Of a stretch of DNA of 17,611 nucleotides, positions 638 to 11,556 are shown in pieces. Below the pieces are notes generated by a model. The model did not search any database and had not been told where the DNA came from. It saw only the letters and a list, made by a program, of their open reading frames with translations. The position numbers and the translations under genes are program-made. Each line of letters opens with the position of its first letter. Within the stretch, counting starts at the first letter, position 1. Origin of the DNA: Gammaproteobacteria bacterium (GTDB lineage: Bacteria > Pseudomonadota > Gammaproteobacteria > Granulosicoccales > Granulosicoccaceae); contig JAGRHW010000024.1 of the NCBI GenBank assembly GCA_020444765.1, positions 1 through 17,611 of the forward strand, given 5' to 3'.

Positions 638-671
638 TTGTCACGAAAATGTAATCGGCGATTGTCATAGT
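638..671 (+). promoter_or_regulatory. Pho box plus -10 for the PstS-like gene
   Basis: Two direct half-sites, TTGTCAC (638-644) and ATGTAAT (649-655), are separated by the AT-rich linker GAAA. This gives the 11-bp period of the PhoB consensus CTGTCAT-N4-CTGTCAT; each half matches at 5 of 7 positions. Ten bases later is CATAGT (666-671), a 4/6 match to TATAAT, in the place where a PhoB-activated promoter lacking a -35 keeps its -10. The predicted transcript starts near 678 and reads into the gene at 711. The pstS promoter at 6233-6266 has the same 18 + 10 + 6 layout. Confidence 0.6.
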
Positions 672-710
672 AGCGCGGTAATTTTGCCTGCTGTAGGGAG
701 CATCGCTGTA

Positions 711-1247
711 ATGACCATCAACCCCAGAGCCTTGATGCTGGCGATCGCCATTCCGCTCAGCGCTTCCATATTGGCCGAGTCCCTGACTGTTGAAACAGTC
801 AGCCCATCTCACAGCGGCAAGTCCGATATTCTGACAAGCCTGGTCACGGACTGGTCAGCACATTTCAGCCGCCTTTATCCGGACACCACCCTCCGGGTTC
901 TCGATACAGATGCCGCTAACGCGCTGTTATCTCTCGGCGAAGGCGCCGCCGATATCAGCCCGATGAGCCAGGCGATCGAGGATGCCGAGCTGAAAGCCTT
1001 TACCAGAAGGTTCGGCTACGAGCCGACGCCGGTAAAAGTTGCCATAGCGCCACAAGACAAGCGTGATTCATCGAGCCGTTTCCTGTATGTTTATGTCAAC
1101 AAACAACCGGCAAAACCCCTGGCTGAGCCGGAGAGTCAATTCGTAAAACTGATTTTGTCCAGACTGGGGCAGGAAGCCGTTGCGAGCAGCGGTTATGAGC
1201 CGATACCGGAGAGCGTCGTTCATGCTGAACTGGAAAAAATCCTCTGA
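711..1247 (+). CDS. Shortened PstS-like periplasmic phosphate-binding protein
   Basis: A 178-residue exported protein. The start at ATG 711 is chosen because GGGAG lies at 697-701 and a clean signal peptide follows (residues 1 to about 22, ending SASILA). Residues 35-112 match the first lobe of PstS-like solute-binding proteins, including ADISPMSQAI and FGYEPTPVKVAIA. Residues 120-178 match the family's C-terminal segment (SRFLYVYVNKQPAKPL, LSRLGQEAV). The middle of the family, normally over 100 residues carrying most of the second lobe and an S-x-G-T-type phosphate-binding segment, is absent; the two parts join near residues 112-120. The frame is intact, so this is an internal deletion rather than a frameshift. 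Phosphate binding is therefore doubtful; scaffolding, sensing or non-function are all possible. It sits behind a Pho box and 22 bp before the 84-aa gene, probably as one transcript. Confidence 0.75.
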   Translation: MTINPRALMLAIAIPLSASILAESLTVETVSPSHSGKSDILTSLVTDWSAHFSRLYPDTTLRVLDTDAANALLSLGEGAADISPMSQAIEDAELKAFTRRFGYEPTPVKVAIAPQDKRDSSSRFLYVYVNKQPAKPLAEPESQFVKLILSRLGQEAVASSGYEPIPESVVHAELEKIL

Positions 1248-1269: not shown

Positions 1270-1524
1270 ATGACAATGACGCCGCTGGAAAAAGCCGAAA
1301 CACTCTACGATGAACTGGTCAGTTCGTATCAGGACGGGGACAAACGCGAAATACGCGCGGCCTCGAAGCTGCTGATGGTGGCGCTGGCAAAAATGCAGGA
1401 GCATGGCGGCTTCGGCTGGCAGGGCCTGGTCGAGGAATATCTGATCATCCTCAACAAGGACCCGCAAAAATTCCGCGACATGATGGATTCGAACCGCGGC
1501 CACAGTAAAAAATCCCTGAACTGA
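1270..1524 (+). CDS. Small conserved-looking hypothetical protein (84 aa)
   Basis: The start at ATG 1270 is preferred because TGGTGA at 1257-1262 lies 7 nt upstream; ATG 1276 and ATG 1222 are alternatives. The protein has no signal peptide, membrane segment or cysteine. It appears helical and charged, with an amphipathic block at residues 5-45 (LEKAETLYDELVSSY, then KLLMVALAKMQEHGG) and a second at residues 50-75. The tail is basic (SKKSLN). I do not recognise a family. It lies 22 bp after the shortened PstS-like gene, so co-transcription from the Pho box is likely. Its TGA directly abuts the stop of the convergent Fic-like gene. A cytoplasmic regulatory or adaptor role under phosphate stress would be guesswork. 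Confidence 0.65.
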   Translation: MTMTPLEKAETLYDELVSSYQDGDKREIRAASKLLMVALAKMQEHGGFGWQGLVEEYLIILNKDPQKFRDMMDSNRGHSKKSLN

Positions 1525-2223
1525 TCAGCAATCCATTTTCAGATATTTCGGATCGGAATATTGCTCAAAAAAACCGGCCAGCTCATGCGCCTTGCCTGCA
1601 AAACTGATCAGCATTCTCAGGCTGTTTTTCCGGTACTGGGTGACAGGCCTGGATATTTCATAAAACTCTCTGGAATTTTTTCCATCGAGCACGAAAGGCG
1701 CGTAACCGCGGCTCGCCAAAAGGTGCGTCAGCATCAAAACCGCGGTGCGGTGATTACCTTCGATAAACAACTGAGGATGACTGAGAACCCTTAAATACAA
1801 GCCTGACGCAAGCATCCAGACATTATCCCGCCGGTTCATACCCAGCCATTCCATCAGGCTGCCGAATCCGCCGGAATCCTCACCGTAAAAATGCTTTTCG
1901 GTCGCCACGATATGCTTGCGGTAGCGCCGCCTGCGATCCGGGTCGTCGCCGCACAAAACCAGCCTGTTCAGCTCCAGCACGGCATCGGAGTTTCCCGGGC
2001 TGAAAATATCGATTCCCGCCCTGAGATACTCGTCGACAGCAGTGTAACCACGGAGCATGTTATGCAGCACTTCTTCAGAAAGCGTGTCGCGCGGCTCTTT
2101 TAATTGCGCATTGACGCTGCTGAATCCGGCCTGCGCGGCCCGTAGCGATACTTCAATGGCAGACAGGTCGAGACGAAAATACGACAGCTCCTGATGACCG
2201 GATTGCAAACCGTTCTTGTTCAA
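1525..2223 (-). CDS. Fic-fold protein with degenerate catalytic motif
   Basis: A 232-residue cytoplasmic protein with a Fic-like core. The motif segment is at residues 149-160: HPQLFIEGNHRT. Aligned on Phe153, Glu155, Gly156, Asn157 and Arg159, the position of the catalytic His of canonical HxFx(D/E)GN(G/K)R is Gln151; His149 lies two residues too early. The second Arg of the GNGRxxR form is Val162. Fic proteins normally transfer AMP or other phosphate-containing groups to target hydroxyls, with His as base, so classical AMPylation is doubtful. No obvious (S/T)xxxE(G/N) inhibitory helix was seen. The start is TTG 2223 with AAAGGA about 11 nt upstream; no ATG is in frame nearby. It lies 109 bp after pstB on the same strand, with only a weak hairpin between, so read-through from the pst operon is possible. 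Confidence 0.8.
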   Translation of the reverse strand: MNKNGLQSGHQELSYFRLDLSAIEVSLRAAQAGFSSVNAQLKEPRDTLSEEVLHNMLRGYTAVDEYLRAGIDIFSPGNSDAVLELNRLVLCGDDPDRRRRYRKHIVATEKHFYGEDSGGFGSLMEWLGMNRRDNVWMLASGLYLRVLSHPQLFIEGNHRTAVLMLTHLLASRGYAPFVLDGKNSREFYEISRPVTQYRKNSLRMLISFAGKAHELAGFFEQYSDPKYLKMDC

Positions 2224-2332: not shown

Positions 2333-3166
2333 TCAGCTGAACTCGCCGGCTACATATTCCTTGGTCAATTTCTGTTTCGGGTCTTCAAATATCTGCTGGG
2401 TCTCGCCCATTTCAACCAGATAACCGGTCCTGCCGCCTTCGGAGATATCCACACCGAAAAAGCAGGTGGTATCGGCGACCCGCATGGCCTGTTGCATATT
2501 ATGCGTAACCAGCGCAACCGAATAGGTTTCCTTGAGTTCCAGCATCAGCTCTTCGACCTGGCGCGTGGCGATCGGGTCCAGCGCCGAACACGGCTCGTCC
2601 ATCAACAACACATCGGGCTCGGTAGCAATCGCGCGGGCGATACACAGCCGCTGCTGCTGACCGCCTGACAGGGACAGACCGCTGTTTTTCAGCTTGTCCT
2701 TGACTTCTTTCCAGAGCGCGGATTTTTCCAGCGCCATCTGCACGCGTTCTTCGATATCGCCTTTGTAGCGATTCAGGCGCAGGCCGAAGGCAACATTGTC
2801 GAAGATACTCATGGAAAAGGGGTTCGGCTGTTGGAAAACCATGCCGATATAGCGGCGTACGATAACCGGATCTATATTCTTGTTATAGATATTCTGCCCG
2901 TGATAAGTCACTTCACCTTCCAGGCGGAATGTCTTGATCAGGTCATTCATACGGTTAAGGCTGCGCAAAACGGTACTTTTACCGCAGCCGGACGGACCGA
3001 TAAAGCCGGTAATCTTCTTTTTCGCGATCGGCACCCTGCTCTCACGCACAGCCAGGAAATCCCCGTAGAATATTTTTTTGACGTCGCAATCTATGACAAC
3101 ATCATCCTTGGTTTGGGCTACCGGTGGCAGTGGTTTGCTGGCCGGTCGTTCAGCGGTAAGCATCAT
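2333..3166 (-). CDS. pstB: Phosphate ABC transporter ATP-binding protein PstB
   Basis: The 277-residue ATPase of the high-affinity phosphate importer, working at the inner membrane with PstA and PstC. Walker A is GPSGCGKS at residues 57-64, the Q-loop Gln is at 112, the ABC signature LSGGQQQR at 166-173, Walker B VLLMDE at 186-191 and the switch His at 222. The length is slightly above the usual ~255-260 because of an N-terminal extension of about 20 residues. GGAG lies 8 nt before ATG 3166; ATG 3163 is an equally possible start. It begins 22 bp after pstA. phoU, which usually follows pstB in Gammaproteobacteria, is not here: the next gene is the Fic-like ORF. Confidence 0.97.
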
Positions 3167-3188
3167 TCAATTTACTCCGTATTTTTTA

Positions 3189-4079
3189 CTAAATTCTGGA
3201 TTTGCCGAGCAAACGGGCAAGGATATTAAAGATCAGTACAATCAACACCAGTACCAATGACGCCGCCCAGGCCAGCTCAATCTGATTTTCAAAAGGCATG
3301 GCGGAAAAGTTATAAATAAGTATCGACAGCGAGGCCGTCGGTTCAGCCAGTTCGGACAGATAATAATTGCTGAACAACGCGGTAAACAGCAGAGGCGCCG
3401 ACTCACCGGCTGCGCCGGCCACGGCCAGCATGACGCCGGTCAGGATACCGGACAAGCCGGTCGGCAAGACGACCTTCAGGATAACCTGGGTACGCGTGCA
3501 TCCCATCCCGTAAGCAGCGTCCTTGATACGCTGGGGCACTTGCTTCATCGCCTCTTCCGCCGCGAGCACTACGGTCGGCAGCATCAATACCGCAAGCGCG
3601 AGACCACCCGCGATAGCGGAATACCCGAAATTAATTACCAGCACCGCGTATACAAAAACACCGGCCAGAATCGACGGGAAACCAGTCAGGGTTTTGGCAA
3701 GAAAGCGCGCGGTCGACGCGGTACGACTTTGAGGATCGAGAATCGACAGATAAACCGCAGCCAGAATACCGATAGGTATGCTGATCAGGCCCGCAATCAA
3801 CACCATGACCAAGGTGCCGAGTATTGCATTACCAAAACCGCCGCCCATTTCAAAGCCCGCCGGCGGCAGCGCAGTCAGCGTTTCCCAATTGATACGTGCG
3901 CCACCCTTGATCAGCAGCATATAAATGACCGAACACAGCGGCACGGCTGCCAGCGCCGCAGCAAACCAGGTCAGCGCAGTCAGGATAAAGTTTTTCATGG
4001 AGCGGCGCTCGAACAACTGCCGTTCGAGCTTCGGCAAGCCCATGATCGCCGTCGGTGACTGGAAAGGTTCCTGTTTCAT
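3189..4079 (-). CDS. pstA: Phosphate ABC transporter permease PstA
   Basis: A 296-residue inner-membrane permease that forms the phosphate channel with PstC. About six hydrophobic segments are visible, the first at about residues 29-57. The permease (EAA-type) loop that contacts PstB is evident at KDAAYGMGCTRTQVILKVVL, followed by LPTGLSGILTGVMLAVAGAA. The N-terminal cytoplasmic tail of ~28 residues and the length are normal for the family. Its ATG overlaps the pstC stop by one base (TAATG around 4079), indicating translational coupling. The family assignment rests on these motifs and the operon order. Confidence 0.96.
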   Translation of the reverse strand: MKQEPFQSPTAIMGLPKLERQLFERRSMKNFILTALTWFAAALAAVPLCSVIYMLLIKGGARINWETLTALPPAGFEMGGGFGNAILGTLVMVLIAGLISIPIGILAAVYLSILDPQSRTASTARFLAKTLTGFPSILAGVFVYAVLVINFGYSAIAGGLALAVLMLPTVVLAAEEAMKQVPQRIKDAAYGMGCTRTQVILKVVLPTGLSGILTGVMLAVAGAAGESAPLLFTALFSNYYLSELAEPTASLSILIYNFSAMPFENQIELAWAASLVLVLIVLIFNILARLLGKSRI

Positions 4080-5059
4080 TATGCTTTACCCTCGAATTTC
4101 CTGACCGTGTATTGCTGTATGGCAAGCCCGATAACATTGACCACCAGGGTGATGGTCAACAGCACCAGCGCCGCATACATCAGTGCCTGGACTTCCACAC
4201 CGCCGGCTTCCGGAAAGCTCGATGCCAGCAGCGAGGCCAGCGTATTGGCCGGCGCAAACAGCGATGCACTGATCTGGTTGCTGTTACCGATCAACATCGC
4301 CAGCGCCATGGTTTCACCCAGCGCGCGACCAAAACCAAGCACCAGCGCAGCCAGAATGCCTGAGGAGGCAGTCGGCAACATAACCTTGAGAATCGCCTCC
4401 CAGCGGGTCGTGCCCATGCCGTACGCGGCTTCCTTGACCTTATAGGGTATGCGTCGGAACGCATCGGCGGAGATCGCCGCCACGGTCGGCAGAATCATGA
4501 TCGCCAGCACCAGCGCGGCCGGCGCCAGACCGGGACCGTTAAGCTCGGTACCGAACAGGGGCACCATGCCCAGATGCGTGTGCAGCCAGTCAGCAACAGG
4601 CCGCAACATCGGAATCAGCACATAGATACCCCAGAGACCGTAAACAACCGACGGGATTGCCGCCAGCAGTTCAACGATGGTGCGGAAGATCGCGGCAAGC
4701 CGCAGATCGATAAAATCCTGGGTAAGAAAAATGGCAATCGAGATCCCCAGCACGCCGCCGATCAACAAGGCAAGCAAGGAACTGTACAGGGTTCCCCAGA
4801 TTTCCGGCAACACGCCGAACTGCTCGCGCACTGCATCCCACGTCGTGCCGGTTATAAAGCCTAACCCGTACTCGCTTATTGCAGGCATGGCCTGACCACC
4901 GATCTCCCACAATATGTAAGCCATCAGCAGAATTATCATCATCGCCGCGCCGTAGGCTATGGCGCGAAACAATACATCTCCGGCATAGTCGCCGGTACTG
5001 GGCGGCGCAGTAACCGAGCCGGTACTGTACGCCTCTGAGAACGGGTTGGTAATTGCCAT
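4079..5059 (-). CDS. pstC: Phosphate ABC transporter permease PstC
   Basis: A 326-residue inner-membrane permease, partner of PstA. It shows a first membrane segment near residues 30-50 (AIAYGAAMMIILLMAYILWE), a periplasmic loop with WDAVREQFGVLPEIWGTLYS, and the permease (EAA-type) loop VKEAAYGMGTTRWEAILKVM followed by LPTASSGILAA. The start at ATG 5059 is preferred over the in-frame TTG one codon upstream, because AGGA lies 7 nt before the ATG. It is separated from pstS by 79 bp that contain a strong 15-bp hairpin, so pstCAB expression probably runs below that of pstS. Confidence 0.96.
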   Translation of the reverse strand: MAITNPFSEAYSTGSVTAPPSTGDYAGDVLFRAIAYGAAMMIILLMAYILWEIGGQAMPAISEYGLGFITGTTWDAVREQFGVLPEIWGTLYSSLLALLIGGVLGISIAIFLTQDFIDLRLAAIFRTIVELLAAIPSVVYGLWGIYVLIPMLRPVADWLHTHLGMVPLFGTELNGPGLAPAALVLAIMILPTVAAISADAFRRIPYKVKEAAYGMGTTRWEAILKVMLPTASSGILAALVLGFGRALGETMALAMLIGNSNQISASLFAPANTLASLLASSFPEAGGVEVQALMYAALVLLTITLVVNVIGLAIQQYTVRKFEGKA

Positions 5060-5084
5060 CAAGAAATCCTGTTTGCTTTCAATG

Positions 5085-5118
5085 GAAAAATCCGGGCTTA
5101 TACAAGCCCGGATTTTTC
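5085..5118 (-). terminator. Strong hairpin terminator/attenuator between pstS and pstC
   Basis: A perfect 15-bp inverted repeat (5085-5099 with 5104-5118) with a 4-nt loop sits 21 bp after the pstS stop. The stem core is TCCGGGCTT/AAGCCCGGA and its outer arms are A5/T5 tracts, so it has a U-tract on either strand. On the minus strand it should end most pstS transcripts and let a fraction continue into pstCAB, or act as a 3' stabiliser. Abundant PstS relative to the membrane complex is the known stoichiometric need. Confidence 0.85.
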
Positions 5119-5138
5119 CTCATCGGTATAGGGAGCGC

Positions 5139-6197
5139 TTACTGGATAAATTCAGCAGCAGCTCTTACTTTTTCAATCACGCTTTCCGGCATCGGGATAT
5201 AACCCAGAGCGTCAGCACTTTTTTGCCCTTCGGTGAGGCTGAACTCAACCATGTCACGCAGGGCTTTGGCTTTTTCGTCATCCTGATCTTTGTAGAAAAT
5301 CATCCAGGTGTAACTGGCGACCGGATAAGCGTCAGCACCTTCCGGATCAGTTGCCCAGGCAATCAGGTTAGGCACATCACTGCCGGGCAGCGTGCCTTCA
5401 GGGAATTCCGTGCCGGCCAGCGCCGCAGCACCTGACTCGGAACCCGGAGCAACGAATTCACCCGCTTTGTTTTGCAGCATCGCAACACCTTCCCAACCGG
5501 TCAGCTTGGCATAGCCGTACTCGATGTAACCGATCGCACCCGGCGTTTGCTTGATAGTGGCGGTAATGCCGTCGTTCTTGGGGGATTTGACGAACTTGTC
5601 GCTCTTCGGCCACTGCGGCGACTTGCCTTTGCCGATCGACGAATTGAACTCTTCGTTGATCGCCGCCAGGTGGCTGGTAAAGACATAAGTCGTACCACTG
5701 GAATCGGAACGCACAACAACCGTGATCGGCTGATCGGGCAGCTCAACGCCGGGGTTTGCAGCAGCAATTGCCGGATCGTTCCATTTGGTGATCTTGCCCA
5801 TGAAGATTGCCGGATAAACGTCACGCGGCAACTTCAGATCGGCAACGCCTTCGAGGTTGTAGGCCAGCACGACTTCGCCGGCGGTCATCGGCAACAGAAC
5901 CGCGTTATTGCCGGCTTTGGCCAGCTCTTCTTCGTTCATCGCTGCATCGCTGGCAGCAAAATCGACGGTTTTGTTGATAAAGTCCTGGATTCCGCCACCA
6001 CTGCCCTTGGCCTGGTAGTCGATGCGCACGCCATCATTGACAGCGCTGAAATCCTTGAACCATTTTGAGTAAATCGGAAACGGGAAACTCGCGCCCGAGC
6101 CAATCAGCTTGACTTCGGCGAAAGCCCCGGAAGACAGCGTAGCTGTCACGACAAGCGCACCAAAGAGAGTGGCTCTGGATAACAAAGCGTGTTTCAT
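5139..6197 (-). CDS. pstS: Periplasmic phosphate-binding protein PstS
   Basis: A 352-residue substrate-binding protein of the phosphate importer. A Sec signal peptide covers residues 1-27, ending SGAFA before EVKLIG. The phosphate-binding segments typical of the family are present: GSGASFPFPIYSKWF (33-47), GSGGGIQDF (66-74), DFAASD (79-84) and RSDSSGTTYVFTSHL (163-177). The length is usual for full PstS, in contrast to the shortened paralogue at 711-1247. AGGAGT at 6207-6212 lies 9 nt before the ATG. The gene leads the pstSCAB operon and has a Pho-box promoter at 6233-6266; a strong hairpin follows its stop. Confidence 0.97.
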   Translation of the reverse strand: MKHALLSRATLFGALVVTATLSSGAFAEVKLIGSGASFPFPIYSKWFKDFSAVNDGVRIDYQAKGSGGGIQDFINKTVDFAASDAAMNEEELAKAGNNAVLLPMTAGEVVLAYNLEGVADLKLPRDVYPAIFMGKITKWNDPAIAAANPGVELPDQPITVVVRSDSSGTTYVFTSHLAAINEEFNSSIGKGKSPQWPKSDKFVKSPKNDGITATIKQTPGAIGYIEYGYAKLTGWEGVAMLQNKAGEFVAPGSESGAAALAGTEFPEGTLPGSDVPNLIAWATDPEGADAYPVASYTWMIFYKDQDDEKAKALRDMVEFSLTEGQKSADALGYIPMPESVIEKVRAAAEFIQ

Positions 6198-10454: not shown

Positions 10455-10506
10455 TATAATGTGCCGTATGAGTCTGCGGGTCGTCGCGGGAATTCGCCGC
10501 AGACTC
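10455..10506 (+). promoter_or_regulatory. -10 element and leader hairpin of the TAXI gene
   Basis: A perfect TATAAT at 10455-10460 lacks a good -35 at the usual distance. In the following leader, GAGTCTGCGG (10470-10479) pairs with CCGCAGACTC (10497-10506) as a 10-bp perfect stem with a 17-nt loop. The ribosome site GGAGAG (10534-10539) lies outside the hairpin. No U-tract follows, so it is more likely an mRNA-stabilising or regulator-bound structure than a terminator. Confidence 0.45.
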
Positions 10507-10547
10507 GCCGAGCCTGTTCCTGCCATTACTTGCGGAGAGCTTCACTG

Positions 10548-11399
10548 ATGTCCAAATCCCTTACCGCCGCCCTGCTCTTACTCTGTGTCAGTACGCCCTT
10601 GCTGGCTACCAATGTGGTCATCACGACCGGAAGCCGGGGTGGATCTTACTTTGCCACCGGTGAAAAACTCGCCACCATCCTGTCAGAATATGACTACACT
10701 GCAACGGTCGAGAAAAGCCGCGGCTCGATTGAAAATATCGAACGGGTAGCGAACGGCGAAGCGGCCATAGGGTTTACCCAGCTCGACGCCCTGGCCTGGT
10801 GGATGAATAAAAACCCCACGCCGCCCGACGGCAAACCGTTCACCGTGCTTGGTAACCTGTTTCCGGAGTGTGTGTATATCGCCGTCAACAAAAAAGGGCC
10901 GATTGACGATGAGGACGACCTGCAATCCGACAAAGGCAGGATCGCAGTGCAAAAACGCGGCTCAGGTTCAGCAGTCACCTGGGAATACATGCGCATGCTG
11001 GAACCCGGTTATGCCGAATCCCAAACCATTTTCCAGGGCGGCATGCAGGTGCTGGCGCAACTGGCGGACAATCCGGACGGTGAATTCAACGCCTTTATGT
11101 GGGTCAGCGATCCACAAAATCTGGACCAGCGTTACCTGCAGACCGTGCTGAACAACGAGAACCTGAAACTGATCGATGTCGACGATAAGGACCTCAACGA
11201 CAAGTTTGAGCCTCTCGGCCGACCCATCTACCGCTTCGAGGAGCCCGATGTCGCCAAAGGCTTGATCATGGATCAGGAAATCAATACGATTTGCATGGAT
11301 GCCGTCGTCATCGCCGGCAAGTCGGCGGACGACGATATGCTCGACGATGTGGCTGATATTCTGATCAACCACAGAAACCGCCTCTTCGGAAAAGAATAA
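10548..11399 (+). CDS. TAXI-family TRAP transporter solute receptor
   Basis: A 283-residue periplasmic binding protein of the TAXI group. The start at ATG 10548 has GGAGAG 8 nt upstream and opens a clear signal peptide (residues 1-20, LLLLCVSTPLLA); an upstream in-frame extension lacks this character. The mature protein begins TNVVITTGSRGGSYFATGEK, the typical TAXI opening, followed by SRGSIENIERVANGEAAIGF, the usual ligand-lobe segment. TAXI receptors normally deliver a substrate such as a carboxylate or amino acid to a fused DctQM membrane protein. None is adjacent, so this is an orphan whose permease is elsewhere or which acts as a sensor. The ligand cannot be read from sequence. Confidence 0.8.
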   Translation: MSKSLTAALLLLCVSTPLLATNVVITTGSRGGSYFATGEKLATILSEYDYTATVEKSRGSIENIERVANGEAAIGFTQLDALAWWMNKNPTPPDGKPFTVLGNLFPECVYIAVNKKGPIDDEDDLQSDKGRIAVQKRGSGSAVTWEYMRMLEPGYAESQTIFQGGMQVLAQLADNPDGEFNAFMWVSDPQNLDQRYLQTVLNNENLKLIDVDDKDLNDKFEPLGRPIYRFEEPDVAKGLIMDQEINTICMDAVVIAGKSADDDMLDDVADILINHRNRLFGKE

Positions 11400-11460: not shown

Positions 11461-11516
11461 CGGCTTCATGGAGTAGCAATAGTCGTTGCCATATCCCCGG
11501 TATTGCCTTAAGATCA

Positions 11517-11556
11517 TGTCAAATATTTGACAGACTAGTGATCGTCTGCCTTATCT
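11517..11556 (+). promoter_or_regulatory. Palindromic operator overlapping a -35 element
   Basis: TGTCAAATATTTGACA (11517-11532) is a perfect 16-bp palindrome whose right end is TTGACA (11527-11532), the consensus -35. A weak -10, TTATCT (11551-11556), follows with 18-bp spacing. A dimeric regulator bound here would occlude the polymerase. The predicted start near 11563 gives a leader of about 245 nt before the lipoprotein. The cognate regulator is not in the window. Confidence 0.5.

Follow-up and report, generated by a model that had tools for sequence, protein, structure and literature searches.

A PstS-like gene without the middle of its fold, and its possible single-lobe product, on a gammaproteobacterial contig

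The window analyzed here is the whole stretch of 17,611 nucleotides on contig JAGRHW010000024.1 of a Gammaproteobacteria bacterium (assembly GCA_020444765.1). Its gene of interest, at 711..1247 on the plus strand, is an open reading frame (ORF) that runs from ATG to stop and encodes 178 amino acids (aa) related to PstS. By alignment, this protein consists of the two terminal segments, N and C, of a TIGR02136-type PstS, the type represented by the Pseudomonas aeruginosa structures 4OMB and 4PQJ. The features of the gene and its neighbours are listed in Table 1. Codon usage of the 711-1247 frame scored 0.222 bits per codon relative to the other genes of the window, and the other two plus-strand frames scored about -0.35. 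The protein is listed on 3 contigs in the protein database, the longest of which has the size of the window (17611 bp). The terminators found were no more frequent than by chance.

Table 1. Positions of the gene, its parts and its neighbours in the window
Feature	Position	Strand	Basis
Gene of 178-aa single-lobe PstS-like protein	711..1247	+	ORF; TIGR02136 and PBP_like_2 matches below cut-off
Likely signal peptide, residues 1-22 (MTINPRALMLAIAIPLSASILA)	711..776	+	by eye; low model confidence there
Ribosome-site-like AGGGAG, 10 nt 5' of ATG	695..700	+	by eye
Pho-box-like 18-mer, not significant	638..655	+	13/18 match to consensus
N segment of domain I, residues 34-112	810..1046	+	alignment with 34 relatives; TIGR02136 match
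Residues 65-70, DTDAAN where the family has the AAGSST anion-binding loop, all six replaced	903..920	+	alignment; loop role by homology
Junction linker, residues 113-121 (APQDKRDSS), replacing domain II	1047..1073	+	alignment
C segment of domain I, residues 122-178 (SRFLYVYVNKQP...), best kept part	1074..1244	+	20/24 family-invariant residues
Conserved 84-aa small protein, 22 nt 3' of 178-aa gene, perhaps co-transcribed	1270..1524	+	73 homologues
Fic-like gene, convergent with 178-aa and 84-aa genes	1525..2223	-	Fic E 0.14, below cut-off
pstS-pstC-pstA-pstB operon, full-length PstS of TIGR00975 type (386 bits)	2333..6197	-	family match, conserved order

The missing domain and the altered binding site

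Relatives were collected by a scan of genome contigs, covering those that can be found by the 178-aa protein's own words. The scan returned 52 loci, of which 50 are full-length; contig ends truncate the other two, L031 and L052. One full-length locus was entered with two starts, giving 51 entries from 50 loci, and 34 full-length relatives were aligned after the removal of near-duplicates. In this alignment, residues up to I112 pair with the N segment of full-length PstS-like proteins and residues from S122 onwards with the C segment. Between these two points lie 141-143 aa in 34/34 relatives versus nine here (APQDKRDSS), so that about 134 aa are gone at the junction. The lost part is domain II, the continuous lobe, which the TIGR02136 family needs for its two-lobed clamp, while domain I remains. 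This bears out the sequence-only reading, which had described an intact frame lacking the middle of the fold, with more than 100 residues missing and the N-terminal lobe segment joined almost directly to the C-terminal one near residues 112-120. A second gap, of 11 columns, is located in the N-terminal arm. Family matches stay below their curated cut-offs, with 55.8 bits for TIGR02136 (residues 34-112; cut-off 206.6) and 17.8 bits for Pfam PBP_like_2 (cut-off 27).

The AlphaFold model of the protein matches domain I of 4PQJ, and identity to the 4OMB-4PQJ type over structurally aligned residues is 43 and 41%. The matches listed near the top by Foldseek and VIA were only full binding-protein and LysR-type folds. 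Both the sequence and the fold of TIGR02136 domain I are thus present, and alignment and model together support the view that the retained part would form a coherent lobe.

All three of the motifs GSST, GSD[TS]L, and PMSR occur in 51/51 full-length entries, and by homology with solved PstS these loops would hold the anion in this family. The 178-aa protein carries DAAN at GSST, KSDIL at GSD[TS]L, and PMSQ at PMSR. For comparison, the phosphate residues given in an excerpt of the SAR11 PstS study are Ser32, Ser33, Thr34, Thr61, Ser83, Gly174, and Thr175 (PMC12421899). A phosphate-sensing role, one of those offered earlier in the form of a periplasmic sensor, is unlikely, since each half of the phosphate site is either missing or changed.

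The loss is unevenly distributed over the protein. Columns at least 97% conserved among the relatives were taken as invariant. The 178-aa protein keeps 22 of the 48 such columns of its N segment but 20 of the 24 of its C segment (Fisher p 0.0025), and identity of the C segment to the 34 aligned relatives is 47-60%. In a leave-one-out comparison, full-length members keep at least 0.85 of the invariant columns, and all of them at the median. A lobe tree that includes 38 relatives gives the 178-aa protein a terminal branch of 2.46 and places it at a minimum distance of 3.3 and a median distance of 3.4 from the others, values that are saturated and can be read as "very long" only. Among the others, the median distance is 0.52 and the largest 1.99.

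The chance of such an open frame was estimated by mutating the 711-1247 ORF without selection until 42/72 invariant positions were left. The frame was still open in 46/1000 neutral runs without indels, and in about 1 in 10,000 when frameshifting indels were assumed at 5% of substitutions. As the frame is rarely open under neutral decay, these runs argue that the gene stayed under constraint once its ligand site had been lost.

Relatives, neighbouring genes and other features of the window

No second protein with the same junction was found. A protein database search restricted to 98-311 aa gave 334 candidates with a single hit, the 178-aa protein itself, and no short form was seen among the 52 contig loci. 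Four records were returned by a plasmid search, none covering 80% of the query. Among 48 genomes of a related order (that of G162), one match was found, which was full-length. In the class, 118 of 369 genomes had matches, and no same-junction protein was among the matches listed. A search with a profile of the lobe alone gave at least 8000 candidates, the best 120 of which were full-length (321-335 aa), and it is uninformative on short forms. A natural single-lobe PstS was also not found among the open-licence papers listed in literature searches. Same-length orthologues across genera, from which the sequence-only reading would have argued for a distinct family, therefore did not appear in any of the length-restricted search, the 52 loci, the 48 genomes, or the matches listed from the 369. 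Full-length orthologues at the locus in close relatives, which it had named as evidence for the opposite, were not found either; three related genomes have the neighbouring genes without a PstS-like gene of this kind.

Frames shorter than 300 aa among the matches listed for the class occurred in G301 (178 and 244 aa), G196 (95 aa), G203 (285 aa), and G302 (299 aa). The G301 frames were rejected as natural truncations because they lie in an N-gapped scaffold, and those of G196 and G203 because they lie at contig ends; the 299-aa frame of G302 was left out of this inspection. Short PBP_like_2 frames in the related genomes G428 and G442 were rejected as parallels, since their coordinates coincide with contig ends. 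In G301, a pstS of the same type is split into two pieces (L074 and L075) that are separated by about 737 kb on a single scaffold, and both pieces end in a run of N. The split results from erroneous scaffolding and could be mistaken for a truncated PstS.

The 84-aa protein downstream has no Pfam or NCBIfam match and shows 19 invariant columns in an alignment of ten sequences. Its named homologues belong to Thiocapsa and Lamprocystis, and P0003 to P0008 are 68-78% identical. In the database variant P0002, an extension precedes the identical 84 aa and departs from the window's reading in two residues, both in the 22-nt spacer. The gene was found in 0/369 genomes of the class, 0/20 of one order, and 4/48 of the order of G162. 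That order was located through the photosynthetic reaction-centre family, which was matched in 0/38 genomes of one set and 6/369 of the class, and it includes a phototroph, G274. With the named homologues, this makes a Chromatiales-like host likely; the closest HldE is only 70% identical. In three of these four genomes (L066, L067, and L068) it is linked to pstSCAB, in the order pstS-pstC-pstA-pstB-Fic-like-84 aa on one strand. Their PstS to PstB are 69-80% identical to those of the window, and no match to the 178-aa protein was found in stretches of 16 to 16.5 kb. In the fourth genome, G441, neither pst nor Fic was matched within the 3.2 kb covered. Compared with the three genomes, the 84-aa gene of the window is inverted relative to the Fic-like gene and is preceded by the 178-aa gene. 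Since the three genomes share this gene order without the 178-aa gene, the pst-Fic-84 aa neighbourhood is old, and the 178-aa gene is either an addition or has disappeared from the others.

An origin of the 178-aa protein as a partial copy of the PstS in the adjacent operon was rejected, as that PstS is of the TIGR00975 type. Genes like PstC and PstA follow in many of the 52 loci, whereas the 178-aa gene has no cognate pstC or pstA beside it. The motif region of the Fic-like protein reads HPQLFIEGNHRT in the window but PPQLFLEGNHRT in L066, where the histidine of the Fic motif thus seems to be lost.

Further features were observed at a distance from the gene. Two intergenic repeat copies at 10-72 and 125-187 are 90% identical over 63 nt and contain the palindrome GGATTCCCGCCTGCGCGGGAATGAC; their core, ATTCCC-N8-GGGAAT, resembles the neisserial dRS3 repeat. 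A solute-binding protein of the TAXI type of TRAP systems (NMT1_3, 62.9 bits) is encoded at 10461-11399, and by eye no large TRAP permease ORF was recognised beside it in the ORF list of the window. A near-perfect palindrome, ATGTCAAATATTTGACAG, is located at 11516-11533 between this gene and that of a 717-aa lamin-tail-domain protein, and is perhaps an operator.

Competing explanations and known systems

The 178-aa protein is best read as an old, constrained, ligand-independent single lobe that derives from a TIGR02136-type PstS and is restricted to one lineage, a reading for which the chances appear evenly balanced. On this view, in-frame loss would have left only domain I of the ancestral PstS, phosphate would no longer be bound, and selection, now or formerly, would have acted on a role other than ligand capture. 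Confidence is somewhat short of even for the more far-reaching reading of a natural single-lobe binding protein: a PstS that was cut in frame to its discontinuous lobe, lost its ligand site, and was selected as a ligand-independent envelope protein via its conserved C-terminal face. The conserved C-terminal face may dock on a membrane or envelope partner, such as a permease half or a sensor, and the docked lobe could serve as a ligand-independent plug, anchor, or modulator. Docking is the most likely mechanism, and taken alone it is nonetheless doubtful. We infer export of the protein, a stable fold as one lobe that does not bind phosphate, and past or present selection for something beyond ligand capture. 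For the C-terminal part, constraint now or until lately is the most likely reading.

Several observations weigh against a selected single lobe. With no second sequence carrying this junction, selection on the short form is not directly measurable, and the codon score lies below those of all 12 other genes scored (0.252-0.503; 0.266 for the Fic-like gene). Without relatives in the alignment, AlphaFold gave a pLDDT of 40.6 and a pTM of 0.30, so the good model leans on homologues. The open frame may say less if the divergence preceded the deletion in a full-length copy, and nothing in the analysis tests docking. A sigma-70-like promoter was not found in 400-2400, and the Pho box that had been described as kept upstream did not hold up: the best 18-mer agrees at 13/18 with the consensus, and this level is equalled or beaten in 49/1000 random 150-mers of local composition (about 1 in 20). 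Pho-box control of the 178-aa gene was rejected on this ground. The best match upstream of the window's own pstS is 11/18.

The chief rival is a relic, that is, a PstS gene, perhaps acquired by transfer, which lost its function, diverged, and was shortened, with its frame open by luck or owing to the short time since constraint was lost. This is a quite possible account, held with less confidence than the selected lobe. It agrees with the lineage-restricted, single-copy evidence, the low codon score, the lost binding residues, the absence of the gene from the related genomes, and the 46/1000 neutral runs without indels in which the frame stayed open. It is opposed by the uneven loss between the N and C segments, by at least two in-frame deletions with zero frameshifts, and by the rarity of an open frame once indels occur at the assumed rate. 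A role as partner or inhibitor of the adjacent PstSCAB, in which the lobe docks on PstC or PstA instead of PstS and lowers uptake, would suit both the position of the gene next to the operon and the retained C-terminal face. It is improbable all the same: the operon encodes a PstS of its own, of the TIGR00975 type, the type of the 178-aa protein normally goes with a different PstC/PstA pair, related genomes have the same pst operon without the 178-aa gene, and Pho control is not convincing.

The sequence-only reading had considered a selected minimal form as plausible as a fresh deletion. The equal standing of the two does not survive the present evidence, since the loss of the GSST loop, the very long branch, and the well-kept C segment make a fresh deletion unlikely on the aligned sequences. 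In its full form, that explanation holds that this strain had a full-length PstS, divergent by then but still working, in which an in-frame deletion recently occurred, and it is very improbable. A single event would account for the junction, the YVNK motif common to both hinge strands of full-length proteins could favour such a deletion, and the earlier divergence would then be a separate matter. However, none of the 51 full-length entries from 50 loci shows a change in its GSST, GSD, or PMSR motif, a working phosphate binder is not expected to lose the loop, and the N-terminal arm has its own in-frame deletion. Least probable of all, and by now barely credible, is an assembly artefact joining the two ends of a full-length gene. 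The contig does come from an uncultured sample, but the protein is listed on 3 contigs, the flanking lobe is itself degenerate, and the join preserves the frame and coincides with the lobe boundary. As a control, the split genes of other genomes turned out to be contig ends or N-gapped scaffolds, unlike the window.

If the single lobe is indeed selected, it would be a natural case of two lobes going to one with loss of the ligand site, opposite to the presumed origin of binding proteins from single lobes, in which a lobe can exist alone, and it would offer a handle on which surface of PstS has a function beyond phosphate. Judging by the title, Neznansky et al. reportedly described in 2014 a role of P. 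aeruginosa PstS in biofilms that does not depend on phosphate. If the gene is a relic, the case is ordinary.

With the TIGR02136 PstS of 4OMB and 4PQJ, the 178-aa protein shares the domain I fold and both sequence segments, and it differs from them by the absence of domain II and of the GSST loop and by its length of 178 versus about 320-330 aa. Short entries (about 140 aa) named "phosphate ABC transporter substrate-binding protein" are natural part-proteins of the same superfamily and would retain the other lobe, the one that is missing here. The two-domain type II architecture of the source type is seen in PhoX and PstS of Xanthomonas citri and in the SAR11 CpPstS, for which the excerpts describe where the lobes meet and which serines and threonines bind phosphate; unlike the 178-aa protein, these are complete and ligand-binding (PMC5439949, PMC12421899). 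According to an excerpt of PMC10601554, binding proteins are considered to have arisen when single lobes were duplicated and fused, and isolated lobes have been produced in the laboratory. Among them, the engineered lobes of HisJ, LAO, and ArgBP resemble the 178-aa protein in being single type II lobes with the discontinuous lobe retained. In contrast to it, they are laboratory constructs, and one isolated lobe of each binds ligand, as far as the excerpt describes them (PMC10601554); for the 178-aa lobe, the loss of GSST speaks against ligand binding.
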